Source: Kaistella chaponensis (GTDB lineage: Bacteria; Bacteroidota; Bacteroidia; Flavobacteriales; Weeksellaceae). From it: 64,000 bases of DNA. A program made the position numbers and the translations under genes. The stretch is taken from assembly GCF_900156725.1 (NCBI RefSeq), contig NZ_FTOI01000007.1, positions 62,001 to 126,000 of the forward strand, written 5' to 3'. This document shows positions 40,053 through 49,221 of this stretch, piece after piece. Each line of letters starts with the position of its first letter. Within the stretch, counting starts at the first letter, position 1. The notes under the pieces were generated by a model. The model ran no database searches, was not told the DNA's origin, and worked only from the letters and a program-made list of their open reading frames with translations.

Positions 40053-41024
40053 ATGAACAAAAATTTTAAGATTACCACTATTTTAATCCTTATTGCAATC
40101 TTGGTTTCGATGGTGATTAATTTGAATATTGGATTTATAAAATTAAATTTTTCAGATTTTCTCTCCTCCAGTTCAGATCAAGCACAAATTGCACAATTGC
40201 GCATCAATCGTATTTTAGTAATGCTTTTGGCGGGAATTTCTATTCCTACTTCGGGATTTTTATTGCAGGAATATTTTCAAAATCCTTTGGCTGGACCATC
40301 AGTTTTGGGAATTACTTCGGTAGCAAGTTTGAGCGTGGCATTTTATATTTTCTTTTCTCAGGATTTTATCCTTCCAGAATTTTTGCAGAACAGCTTTTTA
40401 AGTATTTCCGCAATTGGAGGAAGTTTGGTTTTGATGCTGATTTTGCTTGCTTTTTCAGGTAAATTTCAAGATAAATCGTTCTTGATTATTTTCGGATTTT
40501 TAATCTCTGCTTTAGCCGGAGCGATTGTTTCTATTTTACAATTCTATGCAGAAAATCAAAGTTTGAAAAACTATGTTTTGTGGAGTTTTGGCGCTAATAA
40601 TCAGGTTTCTACGAATCAAATTTGGATTCTTTCCGTGATTGTGATTTTGGGATTATTCCTTACTTTTAAAACCATCAAACCGTTAATTGGAAATTCGCTG
40701 GGAACAGCTTATGCGCAGAGTTTGGGTGTTAATTTAAGACAGTTGAAGTATTTTGTAATCATTGCTTCTTCCCTGCTTTCTGCTTCTGTGACTGCATTTT
40801 TGGGACCGATTTTATTTATCGGAATCGTAGTTCCGCATTTTTGCAGAATGTTATTTAATCCCGCAAAATTATGGCAACAATGGATTTTGAATATGTTATT
40901 AGGAATATTAATCATGGAATTTTTCTCGATCATTTCCGAAACGACACAGTTTCCCTTAAATATAATTACCTCACTCTTTGGAATTCCTGTAATTTTGATG
41001 ATGATGTTGAAGAATAGCAAATAA
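40053..41024 (+). CDS. FecCD-family ABC transporter permease (iron-siderophore/cobalamin type)
   Basis: 323 aa from the ATG at 40053; the in-frame start at 40011 lies in the preceding terminator. About ten transmembrane helices. Family signatures: LRINRILVMLLAGISIPTSG, NPLAGPSVLGITSVASL, LGVNLRQLKYF, and FLGPILFIGIVVPHFCRMLF, which contacts the ATPase. It imports iron-siderophore, haem or cobalamin. The ATPase gene follows at 41640, but a GxxExxY unit of about 600 bp lies between them. No substrate-binding protein gene is in the window. Confidence 0.9.
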   Translation: MNKNFKITTILILIAILVSMVINLNIGFIKLNFSDFLSSSSDQAQIAQLRINRILVMLLAGISIPTSGFLLQEYFQNPLAGPSVLGITSVASLSVAFYIFFSQDFILPEFLQNSFLSISAIGGSLVLMLILLAFSGKFQDKSFLIIFGFLISALAGAIVSILQFYAENQSLKNYVLWSFGANNQVSTNQIWILSVIVILGLFLTFKTIKPLIGNSLGTAYAQSLGVNLRQLKYFVIIASSLLSASVTAFLGPILFIGIVVPHFCRMLFNPAKLWQQWILNMLLGILIMEFFSIISETTQFPLNIITSLFGIPVILMMMLKNSK

Positions 41025-41631
41025 GTTGGTGAGTCGCAAAGACGCTATTTTTTTTACAAAAATACTTCTTTAAGACGCGAGGATTTTATCCGTGATAAAA
41101 TTTACACTGTAGTAATATACTTCAAAAATCTATCCTTTGATGTTTAAAAAAATAAAAACTACACAAATGACAGAAAATGAATTATCAAAAATTGTTTTTG
41201 AGATCGATTTAAAAATTCATAAAAATTTAGGTCCCGGTTTATTTGAAATTGTTTACGAAGAATGCTTGTTTTATGAATTGAAAAAAGCAGGATTGAAAGT
41301 AGAAAAACAAAAATTATTGCCCATTAAATATGAAGAATTGACTATTGAAAATGCGTATAAATTAGATATGATTGTTGAAGACAAGTTAATTTTGGAAATA
41401 AAAACCGTAGATTACATCAATTCCTCACACAAAGCCCAACAACTCTTAACCTATCTAAAAATGACCGATTGTAGATTAGGTTTACTCATCAATTTTCAAT
41501 CAGATTTATTCAAAAATGGAGTAACAAGAATTGTAAATGGCTTATAAAAAAAAGAAAATTTGACTTTGTCAAATTCCTTGCGCCTTAAAGAAGTATTTTA
41601 GCAAAAAAATTGCGCCTTTGCGAAATCCAAC
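41025..41631. mobile_element. Repeat-flanked GxxExxY unit with terminal inverted repeats
   Basis: The left end (41025-41082) and the right end (41576-41631) are imperfect inverted repeats of 56-58 nt. Their inner 24 nt, AAAATACTTCTTTAAG and the next 8 nt, match at 22 positions, and the outer parts share GTTGG, TCGCAAAG and a T-run. Immediately inside each end is an 8-bp hairpin with a 3-nt loop (ATTTTATC/GATAAAAT at 41083-41101; AATTTGAC/GTCAAATT at 41557-41575). The only gene inside encodes a GxxExxY protein. The unit fills the gap between ABC permease and ATPase genes exactly. Confidence 0.7.
41167..41547 (+). CDS. GxxExxY family protein
   Basis: 126 aa from the ATG at 41167, the usual family start (MTENELSKIVFEIDLKIH); an ATG at 41137 is in frame but atypical. 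The naming motif is GPGLFEIVYEECLFYEL. The remainder shows the PD-(D/E)XK-like core YKLDMIVEDKLILEIKTV (D, then ExK), then SSHKAQQLLTYLKMTDC. The function is unknown; the fold suggests a nuclease ancestry. The gene sits alone between terminal inverted repeats and separates two ABC transporter genes, so it is probably a mobile passenger. Confidence 0.9.
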   Translation: MTENELSKIVFEIDLKIHKNLGPGLFEIVYEECLFYELKKAGLKVEKQKLLPIKYEELTIENAYKLDMIVEDKLILEIKTVDYINSSHKAQQLLTYLKMTDCRLGLLINFQSDLFKNGVTRIVNGL

Positions 41632-41639
41632 AACAAAAT

Positions 41640-42563
41640 ATGTTTTTAAAATTAAAAAATACAACAATTGGTCACCAAACTCCTTTAATTAAAGGCGTTA
41701 ATACCACTTTGGAACTTGGTGACACTTGTCTTTTGGTCGGAAACAATGGCGTGGGAAAAACGACTTTAATAAAAAGTATTCTTAATCAGATTTCTGCTTT
41801 AGAAGGCGAACTTTTTCTCGGCGGAAAAAACCTAAAAACACTTTCAAACAAAGAAATTGCTGAACAAATTGCGGTGGTTTTTTCGAAATCCCAAATTCCT
41901 GCAAATTATACCGTAACTGATCTGATCTCGCTCGGGAAATACATTCATTATCCTTATTATTTTGAGCTTAATGATGCTGATAAAAAACACGTTGAAGTAA
42001 TTATCGAAAATTTGAATTTAATGCAATACCGGAATTTTTCACTGCATCAATTATCCGATGGAAATCTTCAAAAAGCATTTATAGGAAGAGCTTTGGCGCA
42101 GAATTCACCGATGATTATCCTAGATGAGCCAACAACTCACTTGGATGAAGAAAATAAAATTATCATTCTAAAACTCCTCAGAAAACTAGCGAAAAATCAA
42201 AACAAACTCATTCTGTTCTCCTCCCATGATTGGCGTTTGTCTAAAGAATTTGCGTCTAAAATGTGGTTCATTCACAACGAAAAATTAGAAGCAGGAATTA
42301 CAGAAGATATTTTATTGAAAAATGATGAACTCCTTAATCCACAACTTTTTCACCTCGACGAAGAATTTTCACCACCTTATATTGATGCGCCTTCATTAGA
42401 AAAAGAAATGCTCTATTCTTTTCTTCAAAAAAACTTCAGAAAAAACCTTTCCTCTTATAAATTTGAATGGAAAGGAACATTTTGGGTCATATCTAAACCT
42501 AATTTTCAGCAAAACTGCGATTCTTTTGCGGATCTTTCACACATCATCGAAAACCTTCGTTAA
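41640..42563 (+). CDS. ABC transporter ATP-binding protein (FecE/BtuD-like)
   Basis: 307 aa from the ATG at 41640; a start at 41610 would lie inside the repeat. Walker A GNNGVGKTTLIKS, Q-loop region VVFSKSQIPANYTV, signature LSDGNLQKAFIGRAL (LSDGN instead of LSGGQ), Walker B MIILDEPTTHLDEEN and H-loop LFSSHDWRLS. The last 70 residues are an extension beyond the ATPase core. Partner of the FecCD permease, originally adjacent to it before insertion of the GxxExxY unit. Confidence 0.9.
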   Translation: MFLKLKNTTIGHQTPLIKGVNTTLELGDTCLLVGNNGVGKTTLIKSILNQISALEGELFLGGKNLKTLSNKEIAEQIAVVFSKSQIPANYTVTDLISLGKYIHYPYYFELNDADKKHVEVIIENLNLMQYRNFSLHQLSDGNLQKAFIGRALAQNSPMIILDEPTTHLDEENKIIILKLLRKLAKNQNKLILFSSHDWRLSKEFASKMWFIHNEKLEAGITEDILLKNDELLNPQLFHLDEEFSPPYIDAPSLEKEMLYSFLQKNFRKNLSSYKFEWKGTFWVISKPNFQQNCDSFADLSHIIENLR

Positions 42564-42590: not shown

Positions 42591-42610
42591 ATACTATGCA
42601 TGCATAGTAT
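42591..42610. promoter_or_regulatory. Distal MarR-type operator
   Basis: A perfect 20-bp palindrome, ATACTATGCATGCATAGTAT. Its centre is 84 bp from the centre of the second site at 42684.5, close to eight helical turns, which would allow two bound dimers on one DNA face. Confidence 0.6.
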
Positions 42611-42674
42611 TATGCAATTCATATATTTTAATGTGTTGATTTTCAACGATTAACATTTATTCAACAAAAATAAT

Positions 42675-42706
42675 ATACTATGCATGCATAATATTATTTA
42701 TATTTG
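42675..42706 (+). promoter_or_regulatory. marR-fad promoter with overlapping operator
   Basis: Operator ATACTATGCATGCATAATA (42675-42693) is followed 5 nt later by a consensus -7 element TATATTTG (42699-42706). The operator therefore fills the space between -33 and -7, and a bound regulator would block initiation. The marR ATG is at 42729. Confidence 0.7.
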
Positions 42707-42728
42707 GGTAACCACATTATTAAAAAAT

Positions 42729-43181
42729 ATGAACAAAAAAAATGATGAAAAAGTTGAAAATGTAGATCTCATTTTGAAATCTACGTGGCTTGCTGTTTCG
42801 AAAATGTATTCGGAATTAGCGCAAGTTCACGATGCAACTGCTGTTCAGGCTTTAACGCTTCTGAAAATTGATCCTAAAGAAGGAACACGAAGCACCAATC
42901 TTGGTCCCAAAATGGCCATTGAACCAACCTCTTTGACGCGGATAATTAAATTACTGGAAGATAACGGATACATTTATAAAGAGAAAACGACCAACGATAA
43001 GCGCGAAGTGATCATTAGACTTACCGACAAAGGTCTTAACTCCCGAAACTTATCCAAAGAAGTTGTGGTGAACTTTAACAAAAAAGTGATAGAAAATATT
43101 CCCACTGAAAAAATGGACATTTTCAAAGAAGTAATGACCGATATTTTGAAAATCGCAAACGAATTAAATAATAAAAAATAA
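42729..43181 (+). CDS. MarR-family transcriptional regulator of the fatty-acid degradation operon
   Basis: 150 aa from the ATG at 42729; the alternative at 42684 lies inside the operator. MarR winged helix: VQALTLLKIDPKEGTRSTNLG, recognition helix IEPTSLTRIIKLLEDNGYI, wing KEKTTNDKREVIIRLTDKG. It is 4 nt from fadN and so cotranscribed with the beta-oxidation genes. Palindromic sites at its own promoter and at etfBA suggest it represses both, probably relieved by an acyl-CoA; the ligand is inferred. Confidence 0.9.
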   Translation: MNKKNDEKVENVDLILKSTWLAVSKMYSELAQVHDATAVQALTLLKIDPKEGTRSTNLGPKMAIEPTSLTRIIKLLEDNGYIYKEKTTNDKREVIIRLTDKGLNSRNLSKEVVVNFNKKVIENIPTEKMDIFKEVMTDILKIANELNNKK

Positions 43182-45695: not shown

Positions 45696-46880
45696 ATGTC
45701 AAAACAAGCATATATAATCAATGGTTTCAGAACTGCCGTTGGTAAAGCGCCAAAAGGAAGTTTAAGATTTACCAGACCCGACGTCATGGCAGCAACCGTT
45801 ATTGAAAAATTAATGGAAGCCGTTCCACAACTCGACAAAAACAGAATCGACGATTTAATCGTTGGAAACGCAATGCCGGAAGCTGAACAAGGGCTAAACG
45901 TAGCGCGTCTCATTTCATTAATGGGATTAAACACCGATCAAGTTCCCGGAGTAACCGTGAACAGATATTGTGCTTCTGGATCTGAAGCGATCGCAATTGC
46001 TTCTGCGAAAATTCAAGCAGGAATGGCTGATTGTATCATCGCGGGTGGAACAGAATCCATGTCTTACATTCCGATGGGTGGTTACAAACCAGTACCGGAA
46101 AGCGACATGGCAAAATCCAATCCCGATTATTATTGGGGAATGGGTTACACTGCAGAAGAGGTAGCAAATCAGTTTAAAATCTCCCGAGAAGAACAAGATC
46201 AGTTTGCTTTTGAATCTCACCAAAAAGCTTTGAAAGCCAACGAATCCGGACGATTCAAAGATCAAATCGTTTCTATTCCAGTAGAATACAATTATCTGGA
46301 TGAAAACCAAAAAATGCAGACCAAGAAATACGACTTTGCAATGGATGAAGGTCCACGAAAAGACACGAGTTTGGAAGGTCTAGGAAAATTACGTCCGGTC
46401 TTTGCAAACGGAGGATCGGTAACCGCAGGAAACTCTTCTCAAATGAGTGATGGTGCTGCTTTCGTGATTGTAATGAGCGAAGAAATGGTAAAAGAATTAG
46501 GCCTTGAACCAGAAGCAAGATTGGCAGCGTACGCCGCCGCAGGTTTAGAGCCAAGAATCATGGGAATGGGACCTTTGTACGCTATTCCAAAAGCTTTAAA
46601 GCAAGCAGGTTTAGAATTAAAAGACATCGACCTCATCGAATTGAACGAGGCTTTTGCTTCTCAATCCGTGGCTTTGAAAAAAGAACTTAATCTAAATCCA
46701 GATATCTTAAACGTCAACGGAGGCGCCATCGCACTCGGACATCCACTCGGTTGTACCGGAACCAAATTAACCGTTCAACTTCTCGACGAAATGCGCAAAC
46801 GCGGAAACATGAAATACGGAATGGTTTCCATGTGTGTAGGAACAGGACAAGGTGCAGCGAGTATTTTCGAGCTTCTTTAA
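45696..46880 (+). CDS. fadA: Acetyl-CoA acyltransferase (3-ketoacyl-CoA thiolase)
   Basis: 394 aa. Nucleophilic Cys in VNRYCASGSEAI (about 91), NEAFASQSVAL, His in GGAIALGHPLGCTG (about 350), and the second Cys in MVSMCVGTGQGAAS (about 381). FadA-type (degradative) thiolase that cleaves 3-ketoacyl-CoA in the last step of beta-oxidation. It lies in the marR-fadN-fadA-fadE operon, with a four-helix-bundle gene inserted after it. Confidence 0.93.
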   Translation: MSKQAYIINGFRTAVGKAPKGSLRFTRPDVMAATVIEKLMEAVPQLDKNRIDDLIVGNAMPEAEQGLNVARLISLMGLNTDQVPGVTVNRYCASGSEAIAIASAKIQAGMADCIIAGGTESMSYIPMGGYKPVPESDMAKSNPDYYWGMGYTAEEVANQFKISREEQDQFAFESHQKALKANESGRFKDQIVSIPVEYNYLDENQKMQTKKYDFAMDEGPRKDTSLEGLGKLRPVFANGGSVTAGNSSQMSDGAAFVIVMSEEMVKELGLEPEARLAAYAAAGLEPRIMGMGPLYAIPKALKQAGLELKDIDLIELNEAFASQSVALKKELNLNPDILNVNGGAIALGHPLGCTGTKLTVQLLDEMRKRGNMKYGMVSMCVGTGQGAASIFELL

Positions 46881-46881
46881 A

Positions 46882-46911
46882 AATTTTAGATTTTAAATTA
46901 TAAATTTTAGA
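46882..46911 (+). repeat. 30-bp direct repeat, left copy, flanking a four-helix-bundle gene
   Basis: AATTTTAGATTTTAAATTAT followed by AAATTTTAGA, identical to 47292-47321. A related inverted form lies at 47405-47436, just before fadE. Confidence 0.85.
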
Positions 46912-46915
46912 GGAG

Positions 46916-47272
46916 ATGAGTTACAAAGAAGATAATTTAATTCAGATAAAAACATTCGATTTTGCATTGAGTATTATTAAATTTTACATGGAATGCAAAT
47001 CTCAGAATGAGTATATCTTGTCTAAACAAATTCTTCGAAGTGGTACATCAATCGGAGCCAATGTAGAAGAAGGGATTGCAGCTCAGTCTAAAAAAGATTT
47101 TATCTCCAAGCTATCTATTGCAAATAAAGAAGCAAGAGAAACAAAATATTGGTTGCGATTATATCATTCTTCAAATTTGGTCCAAATTGACGTCGAACCT
47201 TATTTGAAAGAGATTGAAAGCATCATCAATATCTTAACTAAAATCATCAAAACATCATCTCAAAATTTATAA
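46916..47272 (+). CDS. Four-helix-bundle protein (23S rRNA intervening-sequence protein family)
   Basis: 118 aa. Family signatures: IKTFDFALSIIKFY, EYILSKQILRSGTSIGANVEEG (the most conserved segment), KKDFISKLSIANKEARETKYWLRL, and LKEIESIINILTKII. Homologues occur in 23S rRNA intervening sequences and as the accessory Avd protein of diversity-generating retroelements; the solitary genes have unknown roles. Here it lies between fadA and fadE inside identical 30-bp repeats, so it looks like a repeat-borne passenger rather than part of beta-oxidation. Confidence 0.88.
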   Translation: MSYKEDNLIQIKTFDFALSIIKFYMECKSQNEYILSKQILRSGTSIGANVEEGIAAQSKKDFISKLSIANKEARETKYWLRLYHSSNLVQIDVEPYLKEIESIINILTKIIKTSSQNL

Positions 47273-47291
47273 AAGAATCTAAACGAACTAC

Positions 47292-47321
47292 AATTTTAGA
47301 TTTTAAATTATAAATTTTAGA
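47292..47321 (+). repeat. 30-bp direct repeat, right copy
   Basis: Same 30 bp as 46882-46911, 20 nt after the four-helix-bundle stop codon. Similar AT-rich units continue to 47436. Confidence 0.85.
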
Positions 47322-47442
47322 TGGAAAACAATTTAATTGACATGTTTTGTAATTAATGAAATGGAAACTTTTAATAAACATCTAAAATTTATGAACGCGA
47401 ATCTAATTTAAAATCTATAATCTATAATTTAAAATTACAATA

Positions 47443-49221
47443 ATGAGCAATACACTAAAAGGCGGCGAATTCATCATCAAAGATATTCCTGCAGCAGAAC
47501 TTTTCAGTTTAGAAGAATTGAACGAGGAGCAAAAAATGCTTCGCGAATCTTTAACGGAATTTATCGACAGAGACGTCATTCCACAAAGAGAGCGTTTCGA
47601 AAACAAAGATTACGCGTTGACAGAAGAAACCATGCGTAAACTTGGAGAACTCGGAGCTTTAGGAATCGCGGTTCCTGAATCGTACGGCGGACTCGGAATG
47701 GGGTTTGTGAGCACCATGTTAACTTGCGACGTTGTTTCCGGAGCCAATGGTTCTTTGGCAACCGCTTACGGCGCACACACGGGAATTGGAACACTTCCGA
47801 TCCTGCTTTATGGAACCGAAGAACAAAAACTAAAATACCTTCCCGCTTTAGCAACAGGTGAAAAATTCGGAGCCTATTGTTTGACAGAACCGGATGCAGG
47901 TTCTGATGCAAACTCCGGAAAAACCAGAGCAGTATTGTCGGAAGACGGAAAACATTACATCATCAACGGACAGAAAATGTGGATCTCCAATGCGGGATTT
48001 GCAGATACTTTCACCTTGTTTGCAAGAATTGGAGACGATAAAAACATCACCGGTTTCGTGATCAACCGTTCTGAACTGGAAGATCCAAACAGCATGACTT
48101 TTGGGGAAGAAGAACACAAATTGGGGATCCGATCCTCTTCTACGCGTCAGGTTTTCTTCAATGATATGAAGATTCCGGTAGAAAATCTTTTAGGCGAAAG
48201 AAACAACGGTTTCAAGATCGCTTTGAATGCTTTAAATGCAGGCCGAATTAAATTAGCTGCGGCAAACATCGACGGACAAAGAAGAATCACAGGTTTAGCA
48301 ATCAATTATGCGAACGAAAGAAAACAGTTCGGCGTTTCTATTTCTACTTTCGGGGCGATCCGTAAGAAAATTGCAGAAATGACCACGGGTATTTTCGTTT
48401 CCGAAGCTGCAGCGTACAGAGCAGCGAAAAATGTAGAAGATCAGATTGAAGAATTTGTAGCAGCAGGATCCACGCACGAAGAAGCAGAGCTAAAAGCGTT
48501 GGAAGAATACGCGGTAGAATGTTCAATTCTAAAAGTATATGTTTCCGATCTTACGCAACATATTGCGGATGAAGGAATTCAGATCTATGGTGGAATGGGA
48601 TTCTCTGCAGATGCACCGATGGAAGCAGCTTGGAGAGACGCCCGAATCGGCAGAATCTACGAAGGAACCAACGAAATCAACCGTCTTCTTGCGGTAGGAA
48701 TGTTGATCAAAAAAACCATGAAAGGCGAATTGGATCTCTTGAAACCAGCGATGGCAATCGGGAAAGAATTGATGGGAATTCCGTCTTTCGAAGTTCCTGA
48801 TTTTTCAGCTTACATGTCTGAAGAAAAAGCCATCCTTCACAACCTGAAAAAAGTATTCTTAATGGTTGCCGGAGCCGCGCTTCAGAAATACATGATGGAG
48901 ATCGAAAAACAGCAGCACCTTTTGTTGAATGCTTCTGAAATTCTGAACCAAATCTACATGGCAGAATCTGCAGTTTTAAGAGCAGAAAAACATTTCTCTG
49001 CCGATTCAGTAGAAGCAGCAATGGCACAACTGAACCTTTACAAAGCCGTGGAAGCAATCACCACTGCCGCGAAAGAAGGAATTGTCTCTTTTGCAGAAGG
49101 CGACGAACAGCGCATGATGCTTTCAGGATTAAGAAGATTTACCAAATACACCAATATGCCAAATGTAGTAGCATTAACTGAAAAAGTTGCCGCTCATTTC
49201 GTGGAAAAAGGATCTTACTAG
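47443..49221 (+). CDS. fadE: Acyl-CoA dehydrogenase (FadE-like)
   Basis: 592 aa, the long VLCAD/Bacillus FadE size rather than the 380-aa short form. N-terminal helical domain (1-150), flavin contact AYCLTEPDAGSDANSG, middle beta domain, and the C-terminal domain with YGGMGFSADAPMEAAWRD and the catalytic Glu region RIGRIYEGTNEINR. A roughly 170-residue extra helical tail follows. It performs the first step of beta-oxidation, passing electrons to EtfAB. Last gene of the fad operon, followed by a terminator. Confidence 0.93.
   Translation: MSNTLKGGEFIIKDIPAAELFSLEELNEEQKMLRESLTEFIDRDVIPQRERFENKDYALTEETMRKLGELGALGIAVPESYGGLGMGFVSTMLTCDVVSGANGSLATAYGAHTGIGTLPILLYGTEEQKLKYLPALATGEKFGAYCLTEPDAGSDANSGKTRAVLSEDGKHYIINGQKMWISNAGFADTFTLFARIGDDKNITGFVINRSELEDPNSMTFGEEEHKLGIRSSSTRQVFFNDMKIPVENLLGERNNGFKIALNALNAGRIKLAAANIDGQRRITGLAINYANERKQFGVSISTFGAIRKKIAEMTTGIFVSEAAAYRAAKNVEDQIEEFVAAGSTHEEAELKALEEYAVECSILKVYVSDLTQHIADEGIQIYGGMGFSADAPMEAAWRDARIGRIYEGTNEINRLLAVGMLIKKTMKGELDLLKPAMAIGKELMGIPSFEVPDFSAYMSEEKAILHNLKKVFLMVAGAALQKYMMEIEKQQHLLLNASEILNQIYMAESAVLRAEKHFSADSVEAAMAQLNLYKAVEAITTAAKEGIVSFAEGDEQRMMLSGLRRFTKYTNMPNVVALTEKVAAHFVEKGSY

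Follow-up and report, generated by a model that had tools for sequence, protein, structure and literature searches.

Genes of the GxxExxY family were found in small cassettes with inverted ends at operon junctions, and these cassettes point to a kind of tiny mobile element that is widespread among bacteria and has not been described before. Such a cassette is very probably mobile as a unit; in the reading preferred here, to which roughly an even chance is given, it is a selfish operon-junction cassette, made up of a nuclease gene and lineage-specific inverted ends and spread by homing-like allelic invasion. The window, i.e., the whole stretch of DNA analysed, comprises 64,000 nucleotides of Kaistella chaponensis (contig NZ_FTOI01000007.1, positions 62,001 to 126,000), and coordinates are given in its numbering.

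In the window, a 126-aa GxxExxY gene (41167-41547, plus strand) separates a FecCD permease from its ATPase and is surrounded by inverted ends; the parts are as follows:

40053..41024, plus strand: FecCD-type ABC transporter permease, upstream of the slot (PF01032, E 2e-58).
41025..41101, plus strand: left end, with outer word TCGCAAAGACGC, inner word TTTAAGACGCGAGG and the arm 41034-41087, followed by a hairpin.
41083..41101, no strand: left hairpin, 8 bp with a 3-nt loop, inner side of the left end, ATTTTATC-CGT-GATAAAAT, exact.
41140..41166, plus strand: leader with an in-frame upstream ATG (MFKKIKTTQ).
41167..41547, plus strand: GxxExxY gene, 126 aa, PD-(D/E)XK (RecB/Cas4-like) nuclease as judged by sequence, all conserved residues present.
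41557..41575, no strand: right hairpin, 8 bp with a 3-nt loop, inner side of the right end, AATTTGAC-TTT-GTCAAATT, exact.
41557..41631, minus strand: right end, an inverted copy of the left one, with a hairpin, inner word CCTTGCGCCTTAAAGAAG, outer word TTGCGCCTTTGCGAAA and the arm 41571-41623.
41640..42563, plus strand: ABC transporter ATPase, downstream of the slot (PF00005, E 1e-26).

The gap from the permease stop codon (41022-41024) to the ATPase ATG (41640) is wholly taken up by this unit, which is as discrete as an earlier note on the same DNA had described it, with the GxxExxY gene inside. The outer inverted repeats of that note are present and were measured at 53-54 nt and 85% identity with small gaps (41034-41087 and 41571-41623; ungapped core 39 nt, 87%), instead of the 56-58 nt stated; the hairpins that it had placed at the inner side of each end were recovered exactly, the left one (41083-41101) being also present in the predicted RNA fold. 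The inner 24-mer is found twice in the window, the two copies being oppositely oriented (0.00 expected by chance); elsewhere in the window's own genome a search for copies of the ends returned only short, weak matches, and the general word AACCRCNNAGNNCRCNNAG was in no excess over control there. A known transposase, which the note had found lacking, was indeed not detected in the unit by profile search, the sole ORF being PF13366 / TIGR04256.

The leader (41140-41166) is similar to the opening 20-27 nt of the ATPase gene that follows (MFLKLKNTT; score 29, null 99th percentile 22); the same likeness to the ATPase start is seen in L053 (genome G013), and in such AT-rich DNA it may be due to chance. 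Further downstream, two copies of a TACTATGCATGCATA(G/A)TATT palindrome (42594-42612 and 42674-42692) lie just upstream of, or overlap, the start of a MarR-like regulator ORF (42684-43181) and are possibly its operators.

The window protein was matched to PF13366 with E 9e-37 (126.4 bits; cut-off 22) and to TIGR04256 with E 1e-38 (131.9 bits; curated cut-off 35). Invariant in 16 diverse members were G-x-G-x-x-E-x-x-Y, E38, D68, E78-x-K80, Q93-x-x-x-Y97 and NF; these residues make up, to all appearance, a complete RecB/Cas4-type PD-(D/E)XK active-site pattern. The nearest folds to the AlphaFold model (pLDDT 93) were SSO0001/Cas4 and phage (lambda-type) exonucleases (Foldseek E 2e-3); the structural match to 4ic1 gave Z 9.7 (99 residues at 2.9 A). 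By its intact RecB/Cas4 motifs and the Cas4-like fold of the model, the gene looks like an active nuclease gene, in agreement with the nuclease-like character proposed for it before, and the protein is taken to be in use because the median dN/dS is 0.11 (29 pairs). A defence-system identity was dropped, the PADLOC search having given weak Cas4-like matches only (best E 0.001); no match to PF01797 (HUH, Y1) was found in the cassette protein. In a library of 5.4 million papers, the name GxxExxY was found in two only, once in each; one of these mentions, made in passing, is of a misread cas4 neighbour.

PF13366 was found in 33/36 species of the window's genus, usually in several copies; the 93 genus copies examined fall into 27 slots, and at least two copies are held by 13 of these. 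In a Bacteroidota sample the family is present in 101/198 genomes (about half), with up to 12 copies each, and it is also present in several other phyla. One genome often holds several different subfamilies, each with its own ends, the copy number per lineage per genome being usually one. The wide set was obtained by a genome scan with the closer four-sequence set as query, is for that reason biased to close relatives, and is mostly Bacteroidota. Both neighbours are co-directional with the cassette at 84/101 wide loci (39% expected, p 9e-20) and in 23/27 genus slots; this orientation bias probably reflects the need for read-through expression, together with tolerance within operons. Carriage by phages or plasmids was dropped, the family being present in 0/50,697 phage records, 8/72,556 plasmids and one viral contig.

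The architecture of the ends is shared far more widely than their sequence. Comparison of the upstream flank with the reverse-complemented downstream flank gave a median similarity of 33 over 159 loci (control ORFs 19, p 3e-34). Outside the genus, the ends are composed of CRCNRAG-like tandem words, about 9-12 nt apart and inward-pointing on both sides: 2.12 words per left flank and 2.39 per right flank (controls 0.09 and 0.21), with at least 2 words on both sides at 56% of 110 loci (controls 0/131); such words were also found at loci in Planctomycetota, Cyanobacteria (Tolypothrix), Treponema, Chloroflexi and Ignavibacteria records. Within the genus, the words vary by subfamily (CGCAAAG, CACAGATT, CACAAAAG, CGAAT and others). 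The 24-mer of the inner end, put forward by the earlier note as a means of finding other copies, proved specific to its own lineage and is not a signature of the whole class, because the end sequence changes with lineage and the architecture stays. Nor are the hairpins general: present on both sides in 5.4% within the genus (0.1% in shuffled sequence), they showed no enrichment across phyla in the wide set and were dropped as a class feature. Across the 27 slots, protein similarity tracks end similarity (Mantel r 0.35, p 2e-4), and therefore gene and ends are inherited together; within the same slot, the two ends of one element are more alike than the ends of different elements (p 0.001). In the permease slot of G007 (L068 / L109), the GxxExxY gene stands between arrays of end units: the left unit, about 100 bp long and including its hairpin, recurs about six times in tandem, and on the right the end unit is repeated as well.

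The permease-ATPase slot holds a cassette in 7 species (two decayed) and end remnants in 3 (G005, G010, G030); in the remaining species mostly short junctions of 1-45 nt were found. The empty sites between the same two transporter genes, by which the earlier note would have recognised a mobile unit, thus exist, G006 and G009, the nearest relatives of the window's genome, being examples. Three slots were followed through the genus, and there the cassette alternates with remnants and with clean empty junctions; turnover in the rfbB-rfbA, NifU-HemH and FAH-flavin-reductase slots is like that in the permease-ATPase slot. On the species tree, occupancy changes numbered 6 in the permease slot (8.7 for shuffled states) and 10 in the FAH slot (11.7); for rfbB-rfbA, 16 changes were counted (shuffled 15.0), i.e., occupancy is as scattered as random. 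In the NifU-HemH slot of several species (L295-L305), the place of the cassette is taken by TAGTTGA repeated in tandem, together with a structured repeat containing TTGCGCCCCGACTTGAACGGAGCTC.

A second cassette of the window (46880-47445), downstream of a thiolase-like gene and with repeats ATTTTAGATTTTAAATTATAAATTTTAGA on both sides, has the same architecture as the GxxExxY cassette and an unrelated gene:

46916-47272: IVP gene, four-helix bundle (PF05635 / TIGR02436), in the cassette 46880-47445.

IVP cassettes display mirrored tandem words at lag 7 and co-directional neighbours in 27/28 and 42/46 loci. Two slots, rfbB-rfbA and the junction before MKNLYINNRFF, hold GxxExxY or IVP according to species, with both neighbours unchanged. 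In slot 10 (L453-L455, L478, L480) a RAYT gene (PF01797) with the REP palindrome GGACAGGTCGCGACCTGTCC stands where relatives hold GxxExxY; it may be remarked in passing that operon junctions would then be docking sites shared by RAYT and GxxExxY.

Exchange limited to the cassette was observed between species in two slots. In slot 10, the G022 cassette shares 99% identity with its counterparts in G031, G017 and G008, and the outer flanks match the sister species G026, mostly at 0.97-1.00; donor-like sequence continues beyond the cassette for about 40 nt to the left and some 70-100 nt to the right. In slot 9, the flanks of G017 are mostly 95-100% identical to those of its sister G008, and its cassette is about 76% identical to that of G008 and about 94% to that of G004. 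The GxxExxY gene was more than 5 points above both of its flanks in 12/185 same-slot pairs, against 0/192 for control blocks of similar length; although the pairs are not independent, the difference is plain. The proposal that gene and ends travel together is upheld by these exchanges as well as by the protein-end correlation. Slot-specific spread combined with short co-transferred flanks is what homing would be expected to leave behind. In the G022 case, the sister species hold the RAYT insert in slot 10 and not an empty junction; the same mosaics could also come from ordinary homologous recombination followed by selection.

The following cycle is proposed. The cassette would sit between the stop and start codons of an operon in the transcribed orientation, where it would be expressed by read-through and do little harm. 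When locus DNA bearing the cassette enters another cell or species, the GxxExxY nuclease would open a cassette-free or differently occupied junction, guided either by target sequence there or by the end words of its own cassette; homologous repair would then copy the cassette together with tens of bases of flank, and the cassette would later decay to end remnants. The GxxExxY protein is in this scheme the presumed maker of the initiating cut, and the end words its presumed binding sites; the mirrored words may instead be relics of copying. Entry into a junction for the first time, with its long target duplication, may be a process apart and less frequent. 'Homing-like' fits better than the dispersal of an ordinary transposon, because cassettes re-occupy the same operon junctions, unlike dispersing transposons. 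Long, inverted, tandem-word ends are beyond what homing by itself explains; the tandem end arrays of G007 and the dispersed gene-less units of G032 are likewise not explained by homing alone and look transposon- or REPIN-like.

The strongest competitor, considered rather unlikely, is a small transposon: GxxExxY or a host factor would bind the ends, excise or copy the unit and insert it with a target duplication of about 26-42 bp, and same-slot occupancy would result from an insertion preference for operon junctions. Inverted repeated-word ends that co-vary with the protein speak for it, and two target duplications are convincing. At the G011 cassette, 26-33 nt of the ATPase start recur as a flanking copy, ATGTTTTTACAATT[G/A]AAAAATACAAC (score 51, null 99th percentile 25), which points to a putative insertion just inside the ATPase gene with target duplication; a gene-less unit in G032 is flanked by a 42-nt repeat. 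The same genome, G032, contains the GxxExxY cassette twice at distant places (L243, L244; protein score ratio 0.97) and about 40 matches to the gene-less unit (L422-L451), on both strands and many of them 'inside-out' (right end, then left); these gene-less palindromic units are, by analogy, much like REPINs. The transposon reading is opposed by the usual single copy per lineage per genome, by the fact that same-slot cassettes are each other's relatives, by the slot 9 and slot 10 mosaics, in which entry was by homologous exchange, by the lack of a transposase domain in the unit, and by the scarcity of target duplications: only a handful of the 159 elements exceeded the null 99th percentile, one of them of low complexity, and the two convincing cases are long and unequal (26-33 and 42 nt), with little overall excess. 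No enrichment of downstream-start or upstream-end duplications was found overall, and in L149, L178 and L220, near-perfect-ended and young-looking, no target duplication was seen by eye. Target-site duplications, to which the earlier note had looked, are thus clear in two cases and rare in the set as a whole, and duplication as a general property was dropped; the two cases suggest another mechanism than homing for the first entry into a new slot.

It is improbable that the unit is an immobile host gene, e.g., one for a repair nuclease, whose regulatory flanks are rich in repeats and whose gains and losses are due to ordinary homologous recombination. The strong purifying selection and the filling of the same slots in many species would suit such a gene, and natural transformation could yield mosaics; it is contradicted by the random-like scatter of rfbB-rfbA occupancy, by the presence in a genome of several subfamilies that differ in their ends, by cassette-limited exchange, not found in control blocks, by target duplication, and by the existence of decayed and gene-less copies.

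Least probable of all, and dropped as the main explanation, is an RNA intervening sequence as in 23S rRNA, with the gene in a loop of the transcript and RNase III cutting the stem from the operon mRNA: the RNA 41022-41640 has an unusually strong predicted fold (z = -5.3) with a long closing stem, insertion is co-directional, and IVP genes, known from rRNA intervening sequences (PMC4990558), occur in similar cassettes and slots, but there is no Rfam match, and G.U mismatches between the arms, which selection on the sense RNA would make more frequent than A.C, are equal to them (124:116 in the wide set, 80:83 in the genus), so that end matching is a property of the DNA (binding sites or copying). 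Reverse transcription in trans was also dropped, a reverse transcriptase being present in 16/36 genus genomes and missing from 20/36, several of them cassette-rich (none in G032, G003, G007, G011, G013 and G016). In G024, one reverse transcriptase (443-aa frame) is present nine times, with several of the copies inside 28 kb (C1:2130438-2158828), which looks like a recent burst unrelated to cassettes.

The homing-like cassette may belong to a larger, phylum-crossing class of mobile junction cassettes with mirrored spaced words, transcribed orientation, interchangeable GxxExxY / IVP genes and end-dependent homing; this extension is put forward tentatively, with somewhat less than even confidence. 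If it is true, two common orphan families of bacterial genomes would acquire a function, and a common type of intergenic repeat would be offered an origin. With the family tied to mirrored word arrays, operon-junction slots and cassette-only exchange, its role is directly testable. Homing biology may gain a nuclease family, with possible use as natural site-directed insertion systems, and, by way of the similar IVP cassettes, the long-standing puzzle of intervening sequences in rRNA is tied to a wider class.

Among known systems, Cas4 and other RecB-type nucleases share with GxxExxY the fold and the D, E-x-K and QxxxY motifs; GxxExxY differs from them in being a single 126-aa domain. Cas4 has four cysteines for an iron-sulphur cluster, which are not among the conserved GxxExxY residues, and no CRISPR genes were found in or beside the cassette. 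The TAACTGA heptamer direct repeats of Beggiatoaceae, Cyanobacteria and Bacteroidetes (PMC4679880) are likewise short words in tandem between genes, with a patchy distribution over phyla; the cassette word is different and mirrored around a gene, whereas no linked nuclease is reported for the heptamers. The intervening sequences of 23S rRNA, which encode IVP/S23 (PMC4990558), resemble the cassette as short units with one small ORF and terminal inverted repeats in transcribed DNA; unlike them, the window unit lies in a transporter operon and not in rRNA, its cargo is a nuclease-type gene and not IVP/S23, and nothing in the cassette arms suggests selection for RNA pairing. RAYT genes with REP/REPIN repeats (PMC3116915, PMC3686654) are similar in that one small nuclease-type gene is associated with its own inverted repeats at low copy number on the chromosome; RAYT is, however, an HUH (Y1) enzyme (PF01797) and GxxExxY of the PD-(D/E)XK type, and the cassette ends are tandem 7-mer words, for which the window's own genome yielded no dispersed copies. 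None of the known parallels, i.e., free-standing homing endonucleases (PMC2988022), RAYT/REP (PMC3116915) and rRNA intervening sequences (PMC4990558), has this combination of features. The free-standing homing endonuclease genes of T4-like phages, which spread by intronless homing (PMC2988022, PMC2993671), differ in that the cassettes reside on bacterial chromosomes, belong to another nuclease family and have long inverted tandem-word ends; like the phage genes, the GxxExxY gene lies between host genes, outside any intron or intein, and both are small nuclease genes between ordinary genes, patchy at homologous junctions and exchanged with short co-transferred flanks.
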